Source of the DNA: Porphyromonas cangingivalis
GTDB taxonomy: Bacteria > Bacteroidota > Bacteroidia > Bacteroidales > Porphyromonadaceae
DNA length: 64,000 nucleotides
Direction of reading: 5' to 3'
Assembly: GCF_900638305.1 (NCBI RefSeq)
Contig: NZ_LR134506.1
Span: 1,736,001-1,800,000, forward strand
Numbering within the stretch: the first letter of the stretch is position 1; each line of letters begins with the position of its first letter. The notes beneath the pieces were generated by a model. It worked only from the letters and a program-made list of their open reading frames with translations. It was not told where the DNA came from and ran no database searches. Positions 7,948-62,526 of this stretch are shown here, piece by piece. A program made the translations under genes and the position numbers.

Positions 7948-8724
7948 TCATTTATGTTTTCCGTATTTCTTTTCAAAGAGATCGATGACTTCTTTCATGT
8001 CTTTTTTGAGATAAGTCAAAGCCTTGGCTCTCATTTCGTCCGATATTCCATGATAAGCTTCGGCAATACCTCCGGTAATGGCTGCTATCGTGTCACTGTC
8101 TCCACCGATGGAGACGGCAAGCCTGATGGCGTCTTCAAAATCCTTACTCTCAAGAAAACATACAATAGACTGAGGTACGGTGACTTGGCAAGTCTCATTG
8201 AAGGTGTTTGTAGCTCGGATCTCATCGCACGTTTGGTCAAGATCATAACCATATCCCGAAATCACAAGGGCTTTTATCTCTTCTTTCGTAGCTCCACGGA
8301 GGACATGATGGATACAGTCTGCCACACACACAGCCCCCTTTATACCTTCGGGATGATTGTGTGTGCACTCGGCAGAAGCCTTGGCTTTCGTCAGTACCTC
8401 TTCTCTCATCGGTAGCCAACCACAAGCCGAAACACGCATAGCCGAACCGTTGCCAAAACTTCCATAGGGCTTGGGAGTACTCGAATGTACCCACTCCGAA
8501 AATCTACCTCCATAAGCTCCCATGGGATAAGGATAACGGTTGCACCAGTCGTGCAAAGTCTTCCCAAAATCCAGATCCCTCAACACTGCATCCGCCACAG
8601 CGACAGTACACACGGTATCGTCTGTGAAATCACATTCTCCGGTAAAAAACTCAAAATCCTTACGTCTCGTATTATTGAACTCAAATCTCGACCCTACAAT
8701 ATCCCCTATAATAGCTCCTAACAT
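7948..8724 (-). CDS. ADP-ribosylglycohydrolase family protein
   Basis: 258 residues from the ATG at 8724. The family hydrolyses ADP-ribose bonds on proteins or small molecules using a di-magnesium centre. The metal-binding signatures are present: FTDDT near residue 34 and GGDSDTIAAITGGIAEAYHG near residue 205. The start at 8724 (MLGAIIGDIVGSRFE) puts the conserved GDxxGS motif at the N-terminus, as usual; an upstream in-frame ATG at 8805 would add 27 poorly conserved residues. About 220 bp separate it from the sirtuin gene. Having a sirtuin and an ADP-ribose eraser side by side suggests linked ADP-ribose metabolism, but no ADP-ribosyltransferase is visible nearby. Confidence 0.9.
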   Translation of the reverse strand: MLGAIIGDIVGSRFEFNNTRRKDFEFFTGECDFTDDTVCTVAVADAVLRDLDFGKTLHDWCNRYPYPMGAYGGRFSEWVHSSTPKPYGSFGNGSAMRVSACGWLPMREEVLTKAKASAECTHNHPEGIKGAVCVADCIHHVLRGATKEEIKALVISGYGYDLDQTCDEIRATNTFNETCQVTVPQSIVCFLESKDFEDAIRLAVSIGGDSDTIAAITGGIAEAYHGISDEMRAKALTYLKKDMKEVIDLFEKKYGKHK

Positions 8725-8872
8725 GATACCATATACATTTATTATTTGATGAAACTTCACCTGACTCTCAAGGGTGTCCTCAGATAGCAAGATACCAACT
8801 ATCAACTCACACTAAAGTTACTTCTTTTTGAGATAATAATGACTCTCAAATAATATAGATAGATTCGTCATC

Positions 8873-9004
8873 TCCCTCATAAAAGTGTGAATAATATCGA
8901 TAAAGTCCCTCATAAAAATGTATATAATCATAATTATCTCCCTCATAAAAGTGTGAATGATATCAATAAAGTTTCTCATAAAAATGTAGATAATTATAGT
9001 AAAC
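8873..9004. repeat. Four tandem 33-bp AT-rich iterons
   Basis: Units begin at 8873, 8906, 8939 and 8972, an exact 33-bp period. Each starts YCTCATAAAA followed by RTGT/RTGTGAA and an AT-rich tail; units 1/3 and 2/4 are most alike, so the array is also a 66-bp dimer repeat. A weakly similar stretch precedes it at 8840-8872. The period is a multiple of three, which creates a spurious 66-codon open frame across the array. It sits directly beside the DnaA-box cluster and resembles an iteron array or an AT-rich unwinding region. Confidence 0.85.
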
Positions 9005-9041
9005 TCACAGACAAAGGGTTATTTTCTTATATCCATTCCTC

Positions 9042-9132
9042 AAAAAAAGTCGTTAAAGACGATGTGACAAGTTTAACGACTTCGTGACGAAAGTCGTTAA
9101 ACTTGATCTCGAAGGTCCAAGGACTTTTTTTT
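9042..9132. repeat. Dispersed intergenic repeat, copy 1
   Basis: Starts AAAAAAAGTCGTT and ends with the mini-palindrome GGTCCAAGGAC plus eight Ts. Internal arms AAGTCGTTAAA and GTTTAACGACTT can pair, followed by the family core GTGACGAAAGTCGTTAAACTT. It lies between the iterons and the DnaA boxes. Confidence 0.75.
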
Positions 9133-9601
9133 ATCCACATCGATTGTGGAAAATCTGTGAATAGGCTGTGGAAAACTTGTGGAAAAATAAGTGTTAAAAT
9201 ATTTGGATTAACGGATACAAAATCGGTATAAAATCTTTATCGAAGTGACCAAAAAATAAGGGCAAAAGTTATCCAAAAGTTACTCTATGGGTTATCCACA
9301 TCAAATCCACACAAAATCAAGATCAGTTAGCTCTCCACAGTGATTATTCGGACTATTCACAATAATGTTTATTTACTTATATCAGAGGTCTATAAGCTGT
9401 GGATAGACTTGTGGATGGATGTGAATAGAGATCCTCATGTGATAGCTAATGAAAATGTCTCAAAATCTCTATCCACAATATCCACAGCTATTATCATCGT
9501 TTATTAGGCGAGTTCTTTTTTTTTAGAATAACCTTTTTTCCACAAGTCTTCAAAAAGAAGTTACTACCATATAATATAAAGAAGATGAAAAGTGTGGAAA
9601 A
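9131..9601. other. Candidate oriC: cluster of about fifteen DnaA-box-like sites
   Basis: Two perfect TTATCCACA boxes (9131-9139, 9292-9300) and many one- or two-mismatch boxes on both strands, e.g. 9145-9153, 9167-9175, 9178-9186, 9269-9277, 9353-9361, 9398-9406, 9410-9418, 9420-9428, 9469-9477, 9478-9486, 9536-9544 and 9593-9601 (variants CTATCCACA, TTTTCCACA, CTATTCACA). The region is non-coding and AT-rich. Genes on the left (1.2-8.7 kb) all run leftward and genes on the right run mostly rightward, as expected for an origin. dnaA itself is not in the window, which is common in Bacteroidetes. The role is inferred, not shown. Confidence 0.75.
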
Positions 9602-9639
9602 AGCTAAACTAATTGTCCGTCAGACTACAAAATAATGGT

Positions 9640-9647
9640 TACATTTG
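9640..9647 (+). promoter_or_regulatory. Probable -7 box of the pta promoter
   Basis: TACATTTG matches the Bacteroidetes -7 consensus TAnnTTTG, 35 bp upstream of the pta ATG at 9682. An ATTG lies at 9612-9615 but the spacing (24 bp) is longer than usual for a -33 box. Transcription from here rules out the TTG at 9613 as the pta start. Confidence 0.5.
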
Positions 9648-9681
9648 TGCAAGAATTCAATTCATTATCAATATATCATTT

Positions 9682-10689
9682 ATGAAACTACTCGAAGATA
9701 TCATCAAGAGAGCTCAAAACAACCCTATGCGCATCGTGTTGCCCGAGGGTACAGAAGAGCGTACACTCAAAGCTGCTGATCGTCTCCTTGCTGAAAAGGT
9801 GGTCAAGGTCATCCTTATCGGAGATCCTGCGGAGATCAGAGCAAAGGCCGGAGAGCTCGGTCTCAAGCACATCGAAGAGGCTACCCTCGTATGCCCTAAG
9901 AGCAACGACAAGAAAGAGGTCTATGCCAACCTCCTTTTCGAACTCCGTAAGAGCAAGGGTATGACCATCGAAGAGGCTACAAAGAAGGCTGAAGATCCTC
10001 TATATCTCGCTTGCCTTATGATCAAGAACGGTGATGCGGATGGTGAAGTCGCCGGTGCACTCAACACGACAGGTAACGTCCTTCGTCCTGCACTTCAGAT
10101 CGTCAAGACTGCTCCGGGCATGAAGTGTGTGTCGGGTGCTTTCCTAATGATGGTGAAGGAAAAGGGTTATGGCGAAGATGGTCTCCTTATCTTTGCGGAC
10201 TGTGCAGTGATGCCTCAGCCTACTGCCGAAGAGCTTGCACAGATCGCTGTGGCTTCGGCTCAGACAGCGAAGGCTATCGGTGGTATCGAACCACGTGTGG
10301 CTATGCTCAGCTTCTCTACCAAGGGTAGTGCGGCTCACGAGTGTGTGGATAAGGTGGTCGAAGCTACTCGCCTTGCGAAAGAAATGGCTCCCGAGCTTGC
10401 CATCGATGGCGAACTCCAAGCCGATGCTGCTCTCGTAGAGTCTGTGGCTCGTCAGAAAGCTAAGGACAGCACCGTAGCCGGTAAGGCGAATGTCCTTGTC
10501 TTCCCTAACCTCGAAGTGGGTAACATCTCTTATAAGCTCGTCCAACGCCTTGGTGGTGCCGAAGCTGTAGGTCCTATCCTTCAGGGTATGGCTGCTCCTA
10601 TCAACGACCTCAGCCGTGGTTGTTCGGTCGAAGATATCTACTACATGGCAGCAATCACTGCGAACCAAGCCATGGCAGCCAAGAAGTAA
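9682..10689 (+). CDS. pta: Phosphate acetyltransferase
   Basis: 335 residues, the short single-domain form. It converts acetyl-CoA and phosphate to acetyl phosphate, which AckA then uses to make ATP and acetate; this pathway ends fermentation in the cytoplasm. Seen: [19 protein letters not shown] at the N-terminus, [48 protein letters not shown] and the C-terminal [15 protein letters not shown], all typical of the family. The ATG at 9682 ([14 protein letters not shown]) is chosen over an in-frame TTG at 9613 because a promoter box lies between them. Followed 42 bp later by ackA, presumably one operon. Confidence 0.97.
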
Positions 10690-10731: not shown

Positions 10732-11931
10732 ATGAAAATTCTTGTTTTGAACTGCGGAAGTTCCTCAGTTAAGTACAAGCTATACGAGATGCCTGCAAAG
10801 GATGTGTTGGCACAGGGTGTAGTCGAAAAGTTGGGTCTCAAGGACTCGTTCCTCAAGATGACTTTGCCAAACGGCGAAAAGGTCGTCCTCGAAAAAGAAA
10901 TGCCTGAGCACACCAGCGCGGTGGAGTTCATCCTCGAAAACCTCACAAGCCCACAGTATGGCTGCATCAAGTCTTTCGACGAGATCAACGCCGTGGGTCA
11001 CCGTCTCGTACACGGTGGTGAAGCGTTCAAGGAAAGTGTCCTCATCACCGACGAAGTGATCGCTAAGGTGAACGAGTGTATCGATCTCGCTCCTCTACAC
11101 AACCCACCCAACCTCAAGGGTATCGATGCCATCAAGAAGCTCCTCCCTTCTATCCCACAGGTAGGTGTATTCGACACAGCGTTCCAGCAGTCTATGGAGC
11201 CACACGCATTTATGTATGCTCTTCCATACCGTGTGTATGAGAAGTACGGTGTACGTCGTTATGGCTTCCACGGTACCAGCCACAGATACGTAAGCAAGAG
11301 AGCTTGCGAAATCCTCGGTAAGGACTACAATAACGCACGCATCATCACTTGCCACATCGGTAACGGTGCATCTATGAATGCGATCAAGAACGGTAAGGTC
11401 ATCGATACCACCATGGGTCTCACTCCTACCGAAGGTCTCATGATGGGTACACGTTGTGGTGACGTCGATCCGGGTGCTTTGGCATTCATCATGGGTAAGG
11501 AAAACCTCAATGTCGAAGGATTCAGCAACCTTATCAACAAGGAATCAGGTGTATTCGGTGTGTCAGGTATCTCTTCGGATATGCGTGACATCGAGAACGC
11601 TATCGAGTCAGGCAACGAACGTGCGAAGCTCGCTATGGATATGTACAACCACCGTATCAAGAAGTATATAGGTGCGTTCATGGCCGAACTCGGTGGTTGC
11701 GACATCATCATCTTCACAGGTGGTGTGGGCGAAAACCAAACTTCTACACGTGAGATCGTATGTGCAGGCATGGAGTATTGCGGTATCGAGCTTGATAACG
11801 AACTCAACTCTAAGACTCGTGGTAAAGAAATCGTCATCTCCAAGCCTTCAAGCAAGGTGACAGTGATGATCGTACCTACCGACGAAGAGTTGATGATCGC
11901 TACAGATACACTCACCCTCGCAGGTAAGTAA
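10732..11931 (+). CDS. ackA: Acetate kinase
   Basis: 399 residues, the usual length. Transfers phosphate from acetyl phosphate to ADP, producing ATP and acetate; works with Pta encoded just upstream. Family signatures visible: VLNCGSSSVKYKL at the N-terminus, VGHRLVHGG, FDTAFQQSM, RRYGFHGTSHRYVS, HIGNGAS and FTGGVGENQTSTRE. A purine-rich GGGAAATA sits just before the ATG. The operon is closed by a strong hairpin at 11963-11997. Confidence 0.98.
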   Translation: MKILVLNCGSSSVKYKLYEMPAKDVLAQGVVEKLGLKDSFLKMTLPNGEKVVLEKEMPEHTSAVEFILENLTSPQYGCIKSFDEINAVGHRLVHGGEAFKESVLITDEVIAKVNECIDLAPLHNPPNLKGIDAIKKLLPSIPQVGVFDTAFQQSMEPHAFMYALPYRVYEKYGVRRYGFHGTSHRYVSKRACEILGKDYNNARIITCHIGNGASMNAIKNGKVIDTTMGLTPTEGLMMGTRCGDVDPGALAFIMGKENLNVEGFSNLINKESGVFGVSGISSDMRDIENAIESGNERAKLAMDMYNHRIKKYIGAFMAELGGCDIIIFTGGVGENQTSTREIVCAGMEYCGIELDNELNSKTRGKEIVISKPSSKVTVMIVPTDEELMIATDTLTLAGK

Positions 11932-11962: not shown

Positions 11963-11997
11963 AGAGGGTGTACCGAAACATATTCGGTACACCCTCT
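11963..11997 (+). terminator. Terminator of pta-ackA
   Basis: Perfect 15-bp inverted repeat AGAGGGTGTACCGAA / TTCGGTACACCCTCT with a 5-nt loop, followed by TGTCTTTTGTCC. It sits 31 bp after the ackA stop. Confidence 0.85.
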
Positions 11998-12023
11998 TGT
12001 CTTTTGTCCTTATTAACTCTTAC

Positions 12024-12057
12024 TTTTGTCGTAAAAAAGATGTATTTTTGCGACAAA
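12024..12057 (+). promoter_or_regulatory. Inverted repeat overlapping the -7 box of the abiE promoter
   Basis: TTTTGTCGTAAAAA and TTTTTGCGACAAAA form an imperfect dyad around GATGTA. The right arm overlaps TATTTTTG (12043-12050), a match to the -7 consensus TAnnTTTG. AbiEi antitoxins are known to bind inverted repeats in their own promoter and repress it, so this is a good candidate operator; that role is inferred. Confidence 0.6.
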
Positions 12058-12074
12058 ATAAGGTTAATAATAGT

Positions 12075-12689
12075 ATGGAAAGTATTGATGAAAAGGTAAT
12101 TAAATCTATATCTAAACGCGGAAGGGGTAGTGTTTTTTTTTCGAGTGATTTTATAAGTCTCGGGGAGCATAAGACAATCCTCAAATCCTTGGAGCGTTTG
12201 ACTCAATCGGGTAAGATTATTCGTCTTGCTCGAGGCGTGTACTATTATCCGAAACGAGATAAGGTACTTGGTCTCGGCGTACTTTATCCATCTTACGATG
12301 AGATAGCCATGAGTATAGCGAGGAGAGATAAGGCTCGTATCACACCTGCAGGAGCCTATGCGATGAATATACTCGGTCTTACGACGCAGATACCTATGAA
12401 CATAGTCTTCTTGACCGATGGATCTCCTCGTAAAATAAGGATGTTCAATGGGCATCAGATTACTTTCAAACACACTGTCCCTAAGAATTTATCATTTCAA
12501 GACAAAACAGCTCAGCTCATCACTTTTGCCCTCAAAGATTTAGGACAAGATAATGTCACCGATGAACATAAAAAGATCCTTCGAAGGACACTGGAGAAAA
12601 TCCCTGAGAACAGGGTATCCGGTGATTATAGGTTGATGCCCGTTTGGATACGTACGATCATAAAAGACATCTATGAACAACTACTTTGA
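12075..12689 (+). CDS. AbiEi-family antitoxin (type IV toxin-antitoxin)
   Basis: 204 residues from the ATG at 12075. The N-terminal ~75 residues form a winged helix (KTILKSLERLTQSGKIIRLARGVYYYP), the DNA-binding part that represses the operon; the rest is the AbiEi-type domain (ITPAGAYAMNILGL, VFLTDGSPRKI) that counters the toxin. Type IV antitoxins act on the toxin's effect or target rather than binding it. The start at 12075 is favoured because upstream in-frame codons lie in the promoter dyad. The last 17 bp overlap the toxin gene, as in many AbiE pairs. Confidence 0.88.
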   Translation: MESIDEKVIKSISKRGRGSVFFSSDFISLGEHKTILKSLERLTQSGKIIRLARGVYYYPKRDKVLGLGVLYPSYDEIAMSIARRDKARITPAGAYAMNILGLTTQIPMNIVFLTDGSPRKIRMFNGHQITFKHTVPKNLSFQDKTAQLITFALKDLGQDNVTDEHKKILRRTLEKIPENRVSGDYRLMPVWIRTIIKDIYEQLL

Positions 12690-13674
12690 GTTGACCGAAG
12701 AACAACAGCGAATCATCATTATTCAGACATCGGCACAGATGGGTATCCCCCCGCAAGCCGTAGAGAAGGACTTGTGGGTAAGTATCATCTTGAAGATTGT
12801 TTTTACTTTACCATTTTCCGACTACTTGGTTTTCAAGGGAGGGACTTCACTAAGTAAGTCTTACGGATTGATCGATCGCTTTTCCGAGGACATTGATCTG
12901 GTCATCGATCGAGAGTATTTCGGGCTCTTCGGGGATTTGACGAAGAGGCAGATAAAAAACTTGCGCAAGCAGTCTTCCTTATTTGTGAAGGATGATTTTT
13001 CTTTGGCTCTTCGTAAATCGATGGTTGACTTCGGACTTGATCATCTGTGTGATATTGTGCCCGAACCGGATGGAGAAGGTGATTCTACTTATCCCGAGCC
13101 TCGTAAGATACACGTACGATACAAGTCTCTTTTTCAGTATGACAGTTACCTTAACTCTGAGATAATGTTGGAGATAGGTGCACGTTCGTTATTCGAACCC
13201 ACTGAAGTTACTACAATCAAGAGCTTTATCTCTGCCAAATTTGATCATATCAACACAGATATTATTTCTCCACAGATTACAACCTCTACTCCTGCAAAGA
13301 CATTTTTGGAAAAAGCATTTTTGTTGCACGAATTGTTCACGACAGGGAGGGCAACTATAGCTGACAGAAAGTCACGACATCTGTATGATCTGGAGAAGAT
13401 GATGGATCATGACTTTGCAAGGCAGGTGATTAAGGACGACAAACTTTGGGAAAGTATTGCACATCACCGAGAAGTATTTACGAGTTTGTCAGGGGTGGAC
13501 TACACACCTGATATTCGGAATCGTATAGTATTGCTTCCTCCTGCTGAGGTTAGAGACGTTTGGGAAAAGGATTATAAGGAGATGCAGACTTCGATGATTT
13601 ACGGCTCATCATTGCTTTTTGGAGAGTTGTTGAATAGGATTTCTGATCTTGAGAATCATTTTCGTAATAGGTAA
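12673..13674 (+). CDS. AbiEii-family nucleotidyltransferase toxin
   Basis: 333 residues. The polymerase-beta-like nucleotidyltransferase signature is intact: VFKGGTSLSKSYGL followed by SEDIDLVID, i.e. GG(S/T)S...DxD, near residues 55-82. The C-terminal part (LHELFTTGRATIADRKSRHLYDL) carries the conserved K/R-H-xYDL region of the family. Relatives transfer nucleotides to RNA (tRNA acceptor ends in studied cases) and arrest growth, giving phage defence by abortive infection. Overlaps the antitoxin gene by 17 bp. No sign of decay, so the pair should be active. Confidence 0.88.
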   Translation: MNNYFELTEEQQRIIIIQTSAQMGIPPQAVEKDLWVSIILKIVFTLPFSDYLVFKGGTSLSKSYGLIDRFSEDIDLVIDREYFGLFGDLTKRQIKNLRKQSSLFVKDDFSLALRKSMVDFGLDHLCDIVPEPDGEGDSTYPEPRKIHVRYKSLFQYDSYLNSEIMLEIGARSLFEPTEVTTIKSFISAKFDHINTDIISPQITTSTPAKTFLEKAFLLHELFTTGRATIADRKSRHLYDLEKMMDHDFARQVIKDDKLWESIAHHREVFTSLSGVDYTPDIRNRIVLLPPAEVRDVWEKDYKEMQTSMIYGSSLLFGELLNRISDLENHFRNR

Positions 13675-18053: not shown

Positions 18054-18106
18054 TGCCATAAATCAACGAATATCAACCATATCCCTCATCATCCTCTTTT
18101 GTCCGA

Positions 18107-18195
18107 CAAAAGTCATAGGATGCGATAAAACGAATCGTAGGATTCGATGACGAAAGTCGTATGACTTGTTTCATCGAATCCTACGACTTTTTTTG
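18107..18195. repeat. Dispersed intergenic repeat, copy 2 (long hairpin)
   Basis: Arms 18135-18150 (TCGTAGGATTCGATGA) and 18171-18186 pair perfectly over 16 bp with a 20-nt loop that repeats the family core CGAAAGTCGTATGACTTG; seven Ts follow. Compared with copy 3, the stem differs at paired positions on both arms. Confidence 0.85.
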
Positions 18196-18489
18196 TCACT
18201 TCAGACGAAACGGCTGTGTCTTGTCGGATGTGATTATCGAACAAAGAATGAATGCTTTGGTCTCTTTGGTATCAATCTCGCTGTCTGTCTCTGTGTCTTT
18301 TCTTTTACTCTTGGGCTTGGGGCTTCGAGGGCTTTTGTCATTGTCGCAATCGTTCAGATACCGATAATCGTGAAGATAGTCGGCAGATATAGTGAGACTT
18401 AGCATAAATAAGACCTTTCGCCTCAATCCTTCCGATGGGCTTCGGCCGGAAGCTCGATCTGTTTCTGTTTTTGTCCCTGAATATCCGTA

Positions 18490-18520
18490 TTGTCAGAGCC
18501 TCTTATTTTTCGTACCTTTG
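18490..18520 (+). promoter_or_regulatory. mnmG promoter
   Basis: -7 box TACCTTTG at 18513-18520 with a TTG-type -33 box at 18490-18492, spacing 20 bp, 47 bp upstream of the mnmG start. Confidence 0.6.
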
Positions 18521-18567
18521 TGTGTTTCACAGTTTTATAAAATCGAATAAGGATATAACGATATACA

Positions 18568-20451
18568 ATGAGAGTCAACTACGACGTCATCGTGGTAGGT
18601 GCAGGTCACGCGGGTTGTGAGGCGGCTACGGCTGCGGCACGGCTGGGATCGAAGACCTTGCTCATCACGATGGATACGAACAAGATAGCTCAGATGAGCT
18701 GTAACCCTGCCGTGGGCGGTATCGCCAAGGGTCAGATCGTCAGAGAGATAGATGCTCTGGGTGGACACATGGGGGTGGTGTCGGATCAGACGGCCATACA
18801 GTTCAGGATGCTCAACCGTAGCAAGGGGCCTGCGATGTGGAGTCCTCGTGCGCAGAGTGACCGTCAGAGGTTCAGCGAGGCGTGGCGTATGATCGTGGAG
18901 CAGACGGAGAATCTCTCCGTGTGGCAGGATACGGTCAGTGAGGTGCTTGTCAAGGATGGCGAGGTGAGGGGCGTGCGTACGTTCATGGGCGTGGAGTTCG
19001 TGTCTCGTGCGGTGGTCTTGACCAACGGGACGTTTCTCAACGGTCTCATGCACGTGGGTAAGCTCCAGTTTGCCGGAGGTCGTATCTCCGAACCTGCCTC
19101 GATGGGGCTCACGGAACAGTTGCGCTCGTTGGGCTTCGAGTCGGACCGGATGAAGACGGGTACACCCATGCGTGTGGATGCCCGTACGATACACTTTGAC
19201 TTGTGCGAGGTGCAGTATGGGGATGAGGACTTCCATAAGTTTTCGTTCCTCCCGGGGGTGTCGAACAAACTCCTGGTCCAACGCCCTTGTCACATCACCT
19301 ACACGAACCCCGAGGTGCACAAGATACTCGCCGACAGCCTCGATGACTCTCCGTTGTACAACGGTCAGATACAGAGCATAGGGCCGAGGTATTGTCCCAG
19401 CATAGAGACGAAGATCACGACGTTTGCGGAGAAGGAGCGTCATCAGCTCTTCCTTGAGCCCGAGGGCGAGCACACGACGGAGTATTATATCAATGGCTTC
19501 TCTTCTTCGTTACCCTACGAGGTGCAGGATGCGGCGATACGTGCCATCCCTGCGCTCAAGGATGCGCACATCCTTCGTCCGGGGTATGCGATAGAGTATG
19601 ACTTCTTCCCTCCCACACAGCTCAAGCACACGCTTGAAACAATGCTTGTGAAGAGACTCTTCTTCGCAGGGCAGATCAACGGTACGACAGGGTACGAGGA
19701 GGCGGCAGGCCAAGGTATAGTGGCAGGAGTCAATGCCCACTTGGCGGTGCACAGTGCTTCGGACGAATTTGTCCTACATCGTGATGAGGCCTACATCGGG
19801 GTGCTCATCGATGACCTCGTGACGAAGGGTGTGGATGAGCCTTACCGTATGTTTACGAGCCGTGCAGAGTACCGCATCCTCCTTCGTCAGGATAATGCGG
19901 ATGCGAGGTTGACACCGCTGGCAGACAAGTTCGGCATCTGTGGCGCGGAGCGTATGGAGCTCCTTCGTCAGAAAGAACGCCTCATGGAGGATCTCGTACA
20001 CCTTTGTCACAATACTTCGGTGTCTCCTTCGGAGGTGGATAAGCTCCTCGAAGAATGCGGCACGACACCTCTTCGTCACGGTTGTAAGCTCGTCGACCTT
20101 GTGCTTCGTCCTACGCTATCGCTGAAGGTGTTGGCAGAGGCTATCCTTCCTCTTTCGAACGCAATCGCTTCATTACCAGGTGATAGACGTGAGGAGATCA
20201 TCGAAGCGGCAGAGATCGCCATGAAGTATAAGGGGTACATAGATAGGGAAAGAGAACTCGCTGATAAGGCTAAGAGATTGGAACACATTAAGATACGTGG
20301 TCACTTTGACTATGACTCGATCAAATCTCTCTCTACCGAAGCGAGACAAAAGCTCAAGAAGATAGATCCGGAGACGATAGGTCAAGCCGCTCGCATCCCG
20401 GGTATATCCCCAAGCGACATCAATATACTATTGGTGCTGATAGGTAGATAA
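18568..20451 (+). CDS. mnmG: tRNA uridine-5-carboxymethylaminomethyl modification enzyme MnmG
   Basis: 627 residues, family length. FAD-dependent enzyme that with MnmE modifies the wobble uridine of several tRNAs, improving decoding. Seen: the FAD-binding GAGHAGCEAA at residues 11-20, the conserved CNPAVGGIAKG and the DQTAIQFRMLN loop, EYYINGFSSSLPYE, and the NGTTGYEEAAGQG motif. C-terminal helical domain starting near residue 430 contacts MnmE and tRNA. Classical origin-neighbour gene (gidA) in many bacteria. A parS site lies in the 23-bp gap to uvrC. Confidence 0.97.
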   Translation: MRVNYDVIVVGAGHAGCEAATAAARLGSKTLLITMDTNKIAQMSCNPAVGGIAKGQIVREIDALGGHMGVVSDQTAIQFRMLNRSKGPAMWSPRAQSDRQRFSEAWRMIVEQTENLSVWQDTVSEVLVKDGEVRGVRTFMGVEFVSRAVVLTNGTFLNGLMHVGKLQFAGGRISEPASMGLTEQLRSLGFESDRMKTGTPMRVDARTIHFDLCEVQYGDEDFHKFSFLPGVSNKLLVQRPCHITYTNPEVHKILADSLDDSPLYNGQIQSIGPRYCPSIETKITTFAEKERHQLFLEPEGEHTTEYYINGFSSSLPYEVQDAAIRAIPALKDAHILRPGYAIEYDFFPPTQLKHTLETMLVKRLFFAGQINGTTGYEEAAGQGIVAGVNAHLAVHSASDEFVLHRDEAYIGVLIDDLVTKGVDEPYRMFTSRAEYRILLRQDNADARLTPLADKFGICGAERMELLRQKERLMEDLVHLCHNTSVSPSEVDKLLEECGTTPLRHGCKLVDLVLRPTLSLKVLAEAILPLSNAIASLPGDRREEIIEAAEIAMKYKGYIDRERELADKAKRLEHIKIRGHFDYDSIKSLSTEARQKLKKIDPETIGQAARIPGISPSDINILLVLIGR

Positions 20452-20456
20452 ACCAT

Positions 20457-20472
20457 TGTTCCACGTGGAACA
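20457..20472. promoter_or_regulatory. parS centromere site
   Basis: TGTTCCACGTGGAACA is a perfect 16-bp palindrome and fits the bacterial parS consensus TGTTNCACGTGNAACA exactly. ParB binds such sites to organise and segregate the origin region. It lies between mnmG and uvrC, about 11 kb from the DnaA-box cluster. No other full copy was seen in the window; parA and parB are not present. Confidence 0.9.
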
Positions 20473-20474
20473 TC

Positions 20475-22292
20475 ATGCTTATTCCAAGAGAAAATATAAA
20501 GGCTTCGCTCAATGCCATTCCGGAGAAACCCGGGTGTTACCGTTATCGTAACGATAGTGGTACGGTCATCTATGTGGGTAAGGCGAAGAACCTCAGGAAG
20601 CGGGTGTCTTCGTACTTCCAAAAGGAGAACAACGACCCCAAGACACGGGCTTTACTCAGGGACTTGGTGTCGGTGGAATACATCGTCGTAGAGACGGAGC
20701 ATGATGCCTTGCTTCTCGAAAATAATCTCATCAAGGAGCATCAGCCCATGTACAACATCCTCCTCAAGGAGGGTAACACCTATCCGTGGATCTGTGTCAC
20801 GAGGGAGCCTTTCCCGAGGATATTTGTGACGCACAAGATGAGTAAGGATGGGTCGTTGTACTTCGGTCCTTATCCGGATCGGAGTCTGCCGTACACGCTG
20901 ATCAAACTGTTCAAGTGGTTGTTCAAGTTCCGCACGTGCAAGCTCGCCCTCACTCCGGAGAGTGTCAGAGCGGGTAAGTTCCGAGTCTGCCTCCAGTACC
21001 ACATCAAGAGGTGCAAGGCACCTTGTGTCGGCGATGTCTCGATCGAGGAGTATCGTAAGGATGTGGAGAGCGCGAAGAAGATCCTCAATGGCAACATCAA
21101 GGAGGTCGTCAGCGAACTCAAGGATGCCATGCTGACCCATGCGGAGAAGTTGGAGTTTGAGAAAGCCCACGAGATACAACAAACGATCATTGCACTCGAA
21201 AATCATCAAGCAAAGTCGACCATCATCAGCGATGTCATCGGGAATGCTTTGGTGGTGTCTTGCGAGTCGGACAGCGAAGCGTTTTATGTCAATTATCTTG
21301 AGCTACGACATGGCAATATCATCGCCGGAAAGACGATGGAGTACAAGATGAGACTGGAGGAGGATAAGGACGATGTGTTGGCTTCGGTCGTGCAGGAGCT
21401 GATACAGACGAGCCGAAGTGGCAGTATCAAGGAGGTGATATTACCGTTTGATCCGGGCTTCAAACTCGATGCTTCCGTATCGATCACCGTGCCTCAGAGG
21501 GGCGACCGAAAGAGGGTCTTGGATCTTTCTCTCGAAAATGTCCGCCAGTATATGACCGACAAGTATAAGCAGGCGGAGAAACTCAATCCTGAGCAACGCA
21601 ATACCCAACTCCTTCGCGAACTCATGGTGACGGTAGGATTACCTACTCTGCCTTACCACATAGAGTGCTTCGACAACTCAAACATCGCAGGGGATGCCCC
21701 TGTCGCTGCTTGTGTCGTCTTCAAGGGTGCTCGCCCCTCCAAGGCGGACTACCGACACTACCATATACGTGATGTCGTCGGACCTGATGACTATGCTTCG
21801 ATGAGCGAGGTCGTCAAGCGTCGTTACAGCAAGATGATCGAAGAAGGGGCTGATCTCCCCGACCTCATCATCACGGATGGTGGCAAGGGGCACATGAGCA
21901 CCGTCTCTGCTGCCCTTGCTGAGCTTGGTATCGAGGTGCCCATCCTCGGTCTGGCGAAGGATAAACACCATAACACCGCCAACATCCTTTTCGGTGATCC
22001 TCCCCAACTCGTCGGCATCATGCAGCGCAGTCAGGCCTTCCATCTCTTGACGAGGATACAGGATGAGGTGCATCGTTTTGCGATAAAGTTTCACAGAGAG
22101 GTGCGTGCCAAGAAGCAAAACAGATCACAGCTGGACGACATCAAGGGCATAGGTCCGGTGACCAAGAAAGCCCTCCTGTCGCACTTCAAAAGCATCAAAA
22201 GAATACGTTCGTCTTCGCTCCAAGACCTATCCGATGTCATAGGCGAGAGCAAGGCAAAGATCATATACAACTACTTCAATAACGAGCAATGA
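20475..22292 (+). CDS. uvrC: Excinuclease ABC subunit C
   Basis: 605 residues. Makes both incisions around bulky DNA lesions in nucleotide excision repair with UvrA and UvrB. Domains in order: GIY-YIG nuclease (GCYRYRNDSGTVIYVGKAKN, residues ~16-36), a cysteine cluster (RTCKLAL, CLQYHIKRCKAPC), UVR helix for UvrB contact (~205-240), RNase H-like C-terminal nuclease (HIECFDNSNIAGD; LIITDGGKGH), and a helix-hairpin-helix end (IKGIGPVTKKALLSHF). Its last 4 bp overlap dtd. Confidence 0.97.
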   Translation: MLIPRENIKASLNAIPEKPGCYRYRNDSGTVIYVGKAKNLRKRVSSYFQKENNDPKTRALLRDLVSVEYIVVETEHDALLLENNLIKEHQPMYNILLKEGNTYPWICVTREPFPRIFVTHKMSKDGSLYFGPYPDRSLPYTLIKLFKWLFKFRTCKLALTPESVRAGKFRVCLQYHIKRCKAPCVGDVSIEEYRKDVESAKKILNGNIKEVVSELKDAMLTHAEKLEFEKAHEIQQTIIALENHQAKSTIISDVIGNALVVSCESDSEAFYVNYLELRHGNIIAGKTMEYKMRLEEDKDDVLASVVQELIQTSRSGSIKEVILPFDPGFKLDASVSITVPQRGDRKRVLDLSLENVRQYMTDKYKQAEKLNPEQRNTQLLRELMVTVGLPTLPYHIECFDNSNIAGDAPVAACVVFKGARPSKADYRHYHIRDVVGPDDYASMSEVVKRRYSKMIEEGADLPDLIITDGGKGHMSTVSAALAELGIEVPILGLAKDKHHNTANILFGDPPQLVGIMQRSQAFHLLTRIQDEVHRFAIKFHREVRAKKQNRSQLDDIKGIGPVTKKALLSHFKSIKRIRSSSLQDLSDVIGESKAKIIYNYFNNEQ

Positions 22293-44280: not shown

Positions 44281-44391
44281 GAAAAAAAGTCGTTAGACTC
44301 GATGACGAAGGTCGTTAGATTCGATGACGAAAGTCGTTAGATTCGATTTTGAGAGTCCATGGACTTGGTTCGAGAGGGTCTGCGGAGGTCA
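44281..44391. repeat. Dispersed intergenic repeat, copy 4
   Basis: AAAAAAAGTCGTTAGACTCG, then two tandem copies of the core GATGACGAAGGTCGTTAGAT / CGATGACGAAAGTCGTTAGA, the mini-palindrome AGTCCATGGACT, and a GAGAGGGTCTGCGGAGGTC tail shared with copies 5-7. Lies in the 475-bp pepE-copy 1 spacer; nothing else but a terminator is seen there. Confidence 0.82.
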
Positions 44392-55888: not shown

Positions 55889-55977
55889 AAAAAAGTCCCG
55901 GGATTTGATTTCGAAAGTCGTAAGATTCGATGACGAAGGTCGTAAGACTTGATCGTGAGGATCCAAGGACTTTATTT
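55889..55977. repeat. Dispersed intergenic repeat, copy 8
   Basis: AAAAAAGTCCCGGGATTTGATTTCGAAAGTCGT, core TTCGATGACGAAGGTCGTAAGACTTGAT, then GGATCCAAGGACTTTATT. Lies in the 336-bp space between the regulator and the tRNA; no gene is seen there. Confidence 0.8.
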
Positions 55978-61053: not shown

Positions 61054-62526
61054 ATGAGAAAGATAAAAGATATTGCTATAGCCGAGTCTGGAGACAGCGA
61101 CTTCAAGGAACGGCTTGAGACAAAGAATGCTAAAAGTTGGCTGAAAAGTGTAAGTGCGTTTGCCAATGGTATTGGAGGGACTCTCTATTTTGGCGTAGAA
61201 GATGGTACACGTAAAGTGATCGGCATAGAAAATATCCAAACGGTCATTAGCAAAATTACAGAGCTGATAGTCGCTCGTATCACACCTCGTCCCACCTTTG
61301 AATGCATCCCTTTGGAGAGAGAGGGTAAAGATGTTTTGGTTGTCAGTGTAGACTCCGGGAAGCAAACACCTTTTTACTATGTTCACGAACACCACCATAC
61401 AGCATATATCCGTATGGGAGATGAGTCTGTCCCCGCGACCGACTATCAGCTGAATGAACTTATCCTCAAGGGACGGAACGAGACATACGACAGTCAAATA
61501 ACAGATAAATTGCGAACGGATTATAGTTTCACATTACTGGAAGCAACTTACTTACACACTCTGAATCAACATATGACAGAGAGTGATTATGTCTCTTTTG
61601 GTTTGGCGACCGAAGATGCTCATTTGACCAATGCAGGATTGCTTTTTGCGGATCAATGTCCGTTGTCGGATAGTAGAGTGTTTTGTACCCGTTGGAACGG
61701 ATTACAAAAAGGATCGGTGCACGATGATGCCGCTGACGATGCCGAATACAGTGGTAATCTGATATCCTTGCTAAAAAACACCACTGAGTTTATCCGGAGA
61801 AATACTCGGAAAGGATGGATCAAAACACCTGATAGCAGAATCGAAAAACCTGATTATGCTGAACGTGCTTATTTTGAGGGAGTTGTCAATGCCTTGATAC
61901 ACAGGTTATATGACTTTAGAGGGACAGAGGTTCATGTGGATATGTTTGATGACCGTCTCGTTATTTCTTCTCCCGGAGGGGTCTATGGTGGTGGCGAACT
62001 CGAACCAATGAGGGATGGATCCTATATCTCAAAGAGACGTAATCCGATATTGGCCGATGTCTTCAGCCGATTGAGATTTATGGAACGAAGAGGTAGTGGA
62101 ATGAAGAAAATATTTGATGCCACAAAGGATCTTTATGGTTATACGAAAGAAAAGACTCCTTTTTTTGAAGTGTTTGGAAAGAGTGATTTTGTCTTGACCA
62201 TCCCGAACGTCAATTATATCCATGATACCATACATGACAACATACATGACAACATACATGACAACATACATGATACCATGCATGATACCATACATGATAC
62301 CATACATGACAACATACATGACAACATACATGAAAAAGTCTCGATGTTATTGTCCTTTTGCGAAGTTTCTCGAAGTCGAGAAGAGATGATGGAGTTTTTG
62401 GAGTTAAGGAACCGAGATCATTTTTTGAAGAAATACCTTCGCCCGCTATTAGATCAGGGCAAAATTGAAATGACTATCCCCGAAAAACCTCGGAGCAAAC
62501 ACCAAAGATATAGAACCACGTCTTAA
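61054..62526 (+). CDS. AlbA_2 (Schlafen-type) domain protein with IHD(N/T) repeat linker
   Basis: 490 residues from the ATG at 61054 (MRKIKDIAIAESGDSDFKE); an in-frame ATG at 61000 is possible. AlbA_2 domain ~10-130 with FANGIGGTLYFGVED intact, ATPase-like region (YFEGVVNALIHRLYDFRG; ISSPGGVYGGGELEP; FMERRGSGMKKIFD), then ten 4-residue IHDN/IHDT repeats (~389-428), and a winged-helix C-terminus. It is a cousin of the 46.7-kb gene. Such linker repeats recur in this family. Regulator or nucleic-acid-linked role is likely but unproven. Confidence 0.8.
   Translation: MRKIKDIAIAESGDSDFKERLETKNAKSWLKSVSAFANGIGGTLYFGVEDGTRKVIGIENIQTVISKITELIVARITPRPTFECIPLEREGKDVLVVSVDSGKQTPFYYVHEHHHTAYIRMGDESVPATDYQLNELILKGRNETYDSQITDKLRTDYSFTLLEATYLHTLNQHMTESDYVSFGLATEDAHLTNAGLLFADQCPLSDSRVFCTRWNGLQKGSVHDDAADDAEYSGNLISLLKNTTEFIRRNTRKGWIKTPDSRIEKPDYAERAYFEGVVNALIHRLYDFRGTEVHVDMFDDRLVISSPGGVYGGGELEPMRDGSYISKRRNPILADVFSRLRFMERRGSGMKKIFDATKDLYGYTKEKTPFFEVFGKSDFVLTIPNVNYIHDTIHDNIHDNIHDNIHDTMHDTIHDTIHDNIHDNIHEKVSMLLSFCEVSRSREEMMEFLELRNRDHFLKKYLRPLLDQGKIEMTIPEKPRSKHQRYRTTS
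62218..62337 (+). repeat. Ten tandem 12-bp repeats inside the AlbA_2 gene
   Basis: Units of ATACATGACAAC / ATACATGATACC coding IHDN or IHDT. Twelve bp keeps frame, so slippage would change only linker length. Confidence 0.95.

Follow-up and report, generated by a model that had tools for sequence, protein, structure and literature searches.

The AT-rich gap upstream of pta in this Porphyromonas genome (8806–9681), or at least its 9131–9601 segment, is very probably the chromosomal origin of replication (oriC), of the ordinary DnaA type. The assignment is based on the position of the GC-skew minimum, a dense cluster of DnaA boxes, a core module that is conserved in other lineages and a linked parS site. 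The DNA analyzed (the window; all positions refer to it unless stated otherwise) comprises 64,000 nucleotides, positions 1,736,001–1,800,000 of the single 2,404,857-bp contig of a 99.97% complete genome. The Pta protein encoded in the window is 96% identical to that of a Porphyromonas sp. metagenome-assembled genome, its nearest named relative. An earlier note on this DNA had interpreted the gap as a replication origin, a proposal that is supported here by the skew minimum and by a box cluster with no match elsewhere in the DNA compared.

According to PMC4755523, origins of Bacteroidetes commonly lie far from dnaA, so the usual landmark cannot find them. Adjacency to dnaA, which is common but not required for oriC, is not seen here either: dnaA occupies positions 1–1344 of the contig, 659 kb from the candidate origin, and encodes a protein with both the ATPase and the C-terminal DNA-binding domains. 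An origin beside dnaA was considered and rejected, as at most two near matches to the DnaA box per 500 bp were present on either side of the gene and across the contig junction, and as dnaA lies inside the positive-skew arm with both flanks positive.

GC skew and DnaA boxes point to the gap before pta

Cumulative GC skew, sampled in 40 stretches of 20 kb, one every 60 kb, reached its minimum at 1.74–1.76 Mb (−1336) and its maximum at 0.60–0.62 Mb. The minimum is flat, with values of −1331 at 1.68–1.70 Mb and −1310 at 1.80–1.82 Mb. Over 260 contiguous kb, the GC-skew minimum was located at 9041, inside the gap, and points no more than 100 counts above it extended from 814 to 26849; the TA and keto skew minima were found at −13.8 and +26.1 kb, respectively. 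Given this flat GC minimum and the offset of the other two, skew places the origin within about 10–15 kb only, and the exact gap is picked by the box cluster. With the whole genome sampled and 260 kb read contiguously, the minimum therefore falls at the candidate origin, which was the check that the earlier note had proposed.

Two perfect boxes and about 13 near matches had been claimed for this gap. At 9131–9601, we counted two exact copies of TTATCCACA, nine boxes with one mismatch and seven with two (Table 1), and the gap proved to be non-coding, as had also been claimed. Across 8860–9690, 13 boxes have at most one mismatch to TTATCCACA and 24 have at most two, compared to means of 0.30 (maximum 2) and 4.06 (maximum 9), respectively, in 500 dinucleotide shuffles. 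Exact TTATCCACA occurs 40 times in the whole genome (12 times for the reversed pattern), and the sole pair of exact boxes no more than 500 bp apart is that of the candidate origin, with a spacing of 161 bp; all other pairs are separated by at least 519 bp. When boxes with at most one mismatch were counted per 500 bp, the gap contained 11, versus a maximum of 3 in 47 other stretches of the same genome (936 kb). The cluster in the non-coding gap is the densest found, as expected of an oriC, with near matches counted in the window and the 47 stretches. A denser cluster elsewhere, which would have spoken against the proposal, was found neither among exact boxes genome-wide nor among near matches in 1.0 of the 2.4 Mb.

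In the whole genome G003, exact TTATCCACA is strand-lopsided (12 forward and 43 reverse), which contig orientation may explain. Two exact boxes 50 bp apart on contig C39 of G003 were rejected as a candidate because they lie inside a gene.

Table 1 Features of the candidate origin and its surroundings. Positions are those of the window unless a locus is named.
Feature	Position	Strand	Remarks
ADP-ribosylglycohydrolase family gene, left neighbor	7948–8805	−	Points away from the gap
Candidate origin gap	8806–9681		Non-coding, AT-rich throughout; between the ADP-ribosylglycohydrolase gene and pta
Four direct repeats, 33-bp spacing, core TCCCTCATAAAARTGT	8873–9004	+	Putative accessory site
Dispersed intergenic repeat, 22-bp unit, inverted copies	9040–9132		Between the 33-bp array and the box cluster
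Exact DnaA box TTATCCACA	9131–9139	+	
Four same-strand DnaA boxes	9145–9186	−	11-bp period (9145, 9156, 9167, 9178)
DnaA boxes	9269–9311	+	9269 (one mismatch), 9292 (exact), 9303 (two mismatches)
Three same-strand DnaA boxes	9398–9428	−	10–12-bp spacing (9398, 9410, 9420)
Putative core module	9469–9501	+	Abutting boxes CTATCCACA-ATATCCACA, 3-nt spacer, triplets ATT-ATC-ATC-GTT
AT-rich stretch with T run	9502–9535	+	After the triplets
Outer DnaA boxes	9536–9601	+ (9536), − (9593)	
pta, right neighbor	9682–10689	+	ATG at 9682
ackA	10732–11931		After pta; pta–ackA pair also in the sister species
mnmG (gidA)	18568–20451	+	Identification in the earlier note confirmed
parS TGTTCCACGTGGAACA	20457–20472		Only genome match to TGTTNCACGTGNAACA with at most one mismatch; between mnmG and uvrC
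uvrC	20475–22292		Right of parS
TCCCTCATAAAARTGT-core direct repeats outside the origin	L211:5005–5086; L251:3001–3080; L283:5577–5623; L204:9374–9421		Segatella plasmid, faecal clone, viral contigs and another genome of the order; mostly intergenic; 32-bp spacing in L204

A core module with the spacing of a known unwinding system

New in this analysis is a putative core module of two abutting DnaA boxes, a 3-nt spacer and a run of NTN triplets, spaced as in the known DnaA-box/DnaA-trio unwinding system. Judged from its sequence, the module would serve as the site of DnaA loading and unwinding, and the AT-rich stretch that follows it as a duplex unwinding element. AT content is 72% at 9500–9549, beside the boxes, in a gap that is AT-rich as a whole. 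In an alignment of four genomes (own, sister species, G011 and G002), the best-conserved 30 columns corresponded to 9469–9498 and included 17 invariant columns (mean 4.5, s.d. 3.4).

The same layout was present in all five clusters compared, which also included that of G008. In the order own, sister, G011, G002 and G008, the first core box has 1, 2, 2, 1 and 0 mismatches, within the limit of two for the trio system, and is followed by 4, 4, 5, 5 and 5 triplets with a conserved middle base, at or above the minimum of three. The triplets begin 12 nt after the first box in each of the five, with a spacer inside the permitted 0–16 nt. The second core box has 1, 3, 3, 4 and 3 mismatches in the same order and is degenerate outside the own species; the limit for this box (four mismatches) is lax, so that staying within it is weak evidence. 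A run of at least four triplets occurs at 0.8–1.7% of positions in these regions; at the core distance, such a run was found for 7 of the 83 boxes in the compared regions, the five core boxes included.

A strict pattern for the core gave one match each in the own, sister, G011 and G002 genomes and none elsewhere in 3.26 Mb, although it misses G008, and the reversed strict pattern gave no match in 3.24 Mb. A relaxed pattern recovered all five cores together with four other places in 3.26 Mb. Both patterns were written after the sequences had been seen and, therefore, show specificity and not discovery.

As described in PMC8287927, the basal unwinding system has no fewer than three triplets, in which the middle base is conserved, and a box-to-trio distance that peaks at 10–13. 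The core resembles this system, which operates in Bacillus subtilis and other bacteria, in its tandem boxes, in its number of triplets with the conserved middle base and in a distance of 12 nt from the first box to the triplets, which falls within the published peak. It differs from the B. subtilis type in that its triplets, known here from sequence, are mostly ATT or ATC instead of the complement of 3'-GAT-5', and in that the second box is degenerate in the relatives. The GAT consensus was not matched in the cores compared, the triplets on the box strand being mostly ATT, ATC, ATA and GTA.

From this arrangement, we infer DnaA binding, unwinding, initiation and ParB action at the candidate origin. 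DnaA, encoded 659 kb away, would bind the strong boxes and then fill the weaker tandem arrays at 9145–9186 and 9398–9428. The abutting boxes at 9469–9486 would place DnaA beside the NTN triplets at 9490–9501, on which it could polymerize along one strand and open the AT-rich DNA to the right. Helicase would be loaded after opening and forks would leave both ways, while ParB on parS 11 kb away would move the new origins.

Conservation in several Porphyromonas lineages and linkage to parS

The sister species (G007, locus L042) carries the same region before pta and ackA. The two regions are 79% identical across 540 bp, and that of the sister contains 12 boxes in 500 bp, with the boxes and core at the same place. 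A single base distinguishes own and sister species in boxes 9156, 9167 and 9178 and the 20 bp that follow, and the box-pair pattern TGTGGAWWANNTGTGGAWWA of the 9145–9186 array has one match in the own genome, one in the sister and none in the other 10 genomes of the genus. On its left, the gap of the sister is bordered by a LysR-family gene directed toward it. The GC minimum of the sister, taken over 58 kb of contig, lies 17 kb from the cluster, at which there is a small local dip.

Adjacency of the candidate origin to pta is limited to the own species and its sister among the genomes examined. The box cluster before pta is absent from the other 10 of the 12 genus genomes (own and sister included). 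A general placement of the origin next to pta was likewise rejected, as only the sister among 80 named pta loci has the cluster; the next highest locus holds four near matches in 1.2 kb, and in four of the loci the upstream DNA is shorter than 1.2 kb.

Other lineages have the core in other settings. In G002, a box cluster precedes a SAM-II riboswitch and metK, 15 kb from parS, and contains 18 boxes with at most two mismatches, a count reached by none of 500 shuffles. Read over 94 contiguous kb, the GC skew of G002 is lowest at 18,288, inside the non-coding gap that holds the cluster and the core (18,083–19,345), and 16 of the 23 stretches of the contig have positive skew. G008 has the same metK arrangement with the core present, and skew along its 30.6-kb contig is lowest at 9,288, which misses the gap by about 1 kb. 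In G011, GC and TA skew over 290 kb (about 0.36 Mb in other contigs left out) have their minima at 114,005 and 114,096, respectively, both in a 1-kb non-coding gap flanked by a Dus gene and a DUF4249 gene, where the core is also present. The G011 boxes are degenerate, and the eight with at most two mismatches, a number reached by 16 of 500 shuffles, are too few alone. The box cluster of G002 was found first and its skew examined after, while the skew minima of G011 were found first and the sequence examined after. G006 has a minimum at 273,654 (80 kb around parS) without box cluster or core, and no origin candidate was found in 20 kb of G009.

The SAM-II riboswitch before metK adjoins the candidate origins of both G002 and G008 (L168:5231–5291 and L175:11479–11540). 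A 6S-like RNA beside the G011 gap was considered and rejected, as Rfam gave no match there at gathering scores.

A cluster of boxes is by itself no proof of initiation, and the limited resolution of the skew (about 10–15 kb) would accommodate a true origin a few kb away if the gap were a DnaA-titration or DnaA-reactivation locus that binds DnaA without starting replication. The datA and DARS loci of E. coli are examples of such loci. The cluster is, however, the sole one of its kind in the DNA examined and sits at the skew minimum, and its core has unwinding-module spacing and recurs at the skew minima of two other lineages; we consider a titration or reactivation locus highly improbable. The near identity of box 9593 and the DNA to about 9660 between own and sister species would also suit a pta promoter region that is box-rich for transcription control by DnaA. 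The same core, though, precedes metK in G002 and G008 and lies between the Dus and DUF4249 genes in G011, and the cluster before pta is confined to the sister among the named loci and missing from the other genus genomes, which leaves DnaA control of pta an extremely slim chance as the explanation.

The candidate origin is further accompanied by a canonical parS and mnmG, which had been placed about 10 kb away; mnmG was confirmed and parS is at 11 kb. A single exact parS at this distance is akin to the ParB–parS segregation sites found near oriC. Exact parS is present in 5 of the 12 genus genomes, each of which has one in the interval from mnmG to uvrC. The uvrC gene of G008 is truncated where the contig ends and was identified from its GIY-YIG domain. 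A second parS of G006 is located within another ORF, and G011 has no exact parS. In the own genome, G002 and G008, the core is located 11, 15 and 18 kb upstream of parS, respectively, in the same orientation, with different adjoining genes.

A broader reading, which we offer tentatively and regard as rather unlikely, is that one core (abutting boxes, 3 nt and NTN triplets) persists across Porphyromonas while its neighbors (pta, metK and Dus) are exchanged. Because the core is kept 11–18 kb upstream of mnmG–parS–uvrC, in the same orientation, in two of three lineages, the conserved unit might be an origin–centromere pair and not the gene context. The origin of the own lineage would, in addition, carry the 33-bp array for a putative non-DnaA factor with sites on a Segatella plasmid and viral contigs.

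Repeats beside the box cluster

The direct repeats to the left of the box cluster had been described as an exact 33-bp iteron array. Their 33-bp spacing is kept exactly, but the copies vary in sequence, with 70–88% identity in the 66-bp register. A role as origin iterons was not supported, given the inexact copies and their occurrence outside origins. Between own and sister species, units 1–3 differ at 3 of 48 bases in the TCCCTCATAAAARTGT core and at 21 of 51 in the spacers, and unit 4 is not recognizable in the sister. Two or three copies with 32–33-bp spacing were found on a Segatella copri plasmid, where a similar array stands before an AAA_14/DUF4143 ATPase gene, in a human-faecal clone and in two viral contigs of the same sequence. 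One further genome of the order also has such copies, which makes 2 of 199 genomes with the own genome counted. With copies on a plasmid, in a faecal clone, in viral contigs and in another genome, the array is not an origin-specific iteron; that one binding protein is common to these TCCCTCATAAAARTGT arrays is a guess.

The similar array on the Segatella copri plasmid would fit an integrated iteron plasmid whose Rep protein acts on the 33-bp repeats, but no Rep family was found among the flanking proteins scanned with Pfam (a subset of ORFs), the Segatella array precedes an ATPase gene, the repeat pair also occurs in viral contigs and the region is common to the sister genome, so that the probability of a plasmid origin is close to nil.

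Other roles for repeats next to the candidate chromosomal origin were explored. As weak DnaA boxes they were rejected, as the sister keeps the TCCCTCATAAAARTGT core and not the box-like part. An operator of AAA_14/DUF4143 genes, the arrangement seen in Segatella, was rejected as well, with no array in 30 such loci from relatives and one lone match with three mismatches in 3 of the 30. Single copies of CCCTCATAAAARTGT were set aside too: apart from own and sister, they occur in 2 of 297 relatives, versus nine genomes for the reversed control, and those in 39 viral stretches, one each, were judged to be chance. Among the matches listed, array matches in Synechococcus and Bacteroides phages were weak. 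The human-faecal clone L251 (MT837731.1), filed as Bacteriophage sp., contains a gene for a TonB-receptor-like outer membrane protein and looks bacterial.

The dispersed repeat between the array and the box cluster has over 40 further matches across the own genome and is not origin-specific. This repeat with its 22-bp unit (like AAAGTCGTTAGATTCGATGACG) also occurs at 18105–18161, 44286–44347 and 55902–55953, the likeness being judged by eye.

Relation to known origins

In PMC4755523, the oriC of chromosome I of Prevotella intermedia OMA14 is given as 476 bp and as predicted by Ori-Finder and skew. It parallels the candidate origin, both being DnaA-box clusters of Bacteroidales located at a skew switch and far from dnaA. 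The DoriC and Ori-Finder origins, as presented in PMC6323995 and PMC10225481, are defined by the same criteria of skew, box cluster and intergenic gap, and these sources note at least one that is distant from dnaA. Among the matches listed for Porphyromonas, Bacteroides, Bacteroidetes and Bacteroidota oriC, DnaA box and parS, taken as titles and abstract openings from literature that does not extend to DoriC, no mapped Porphyromonas origin appeared.

A candidate at base level and a core common to three lineages allow cheap marker-frequency, DnaA-footprinting and origin-plasmid tests as well as coverage-based growth-rate estimates. Further Porphyromonas genomes could also be searched with the core as a pattern.

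Neighboring genes and minor observations

The gene directions claimed for 1.2–26 kb, leftward up to the gap and mostly rightward beyond it, were borne out by the longest ORFs to about 26 kb, and long ORFs at 27–38 kb point left. Directly after ackA, AT-rich DNA at 11997–13674 holds a DUF6088 (AbiEi-like) gene and an AbiEii gene, a pair that is likely a type IV toxin–antitoxin system. In the sister, an ORF with a DUF1648 domain follows ackA in place of these genes. Toward the right end of the window, about nine copies of the 12-bp repeat CATGACAACATA are present at 62221–62333.
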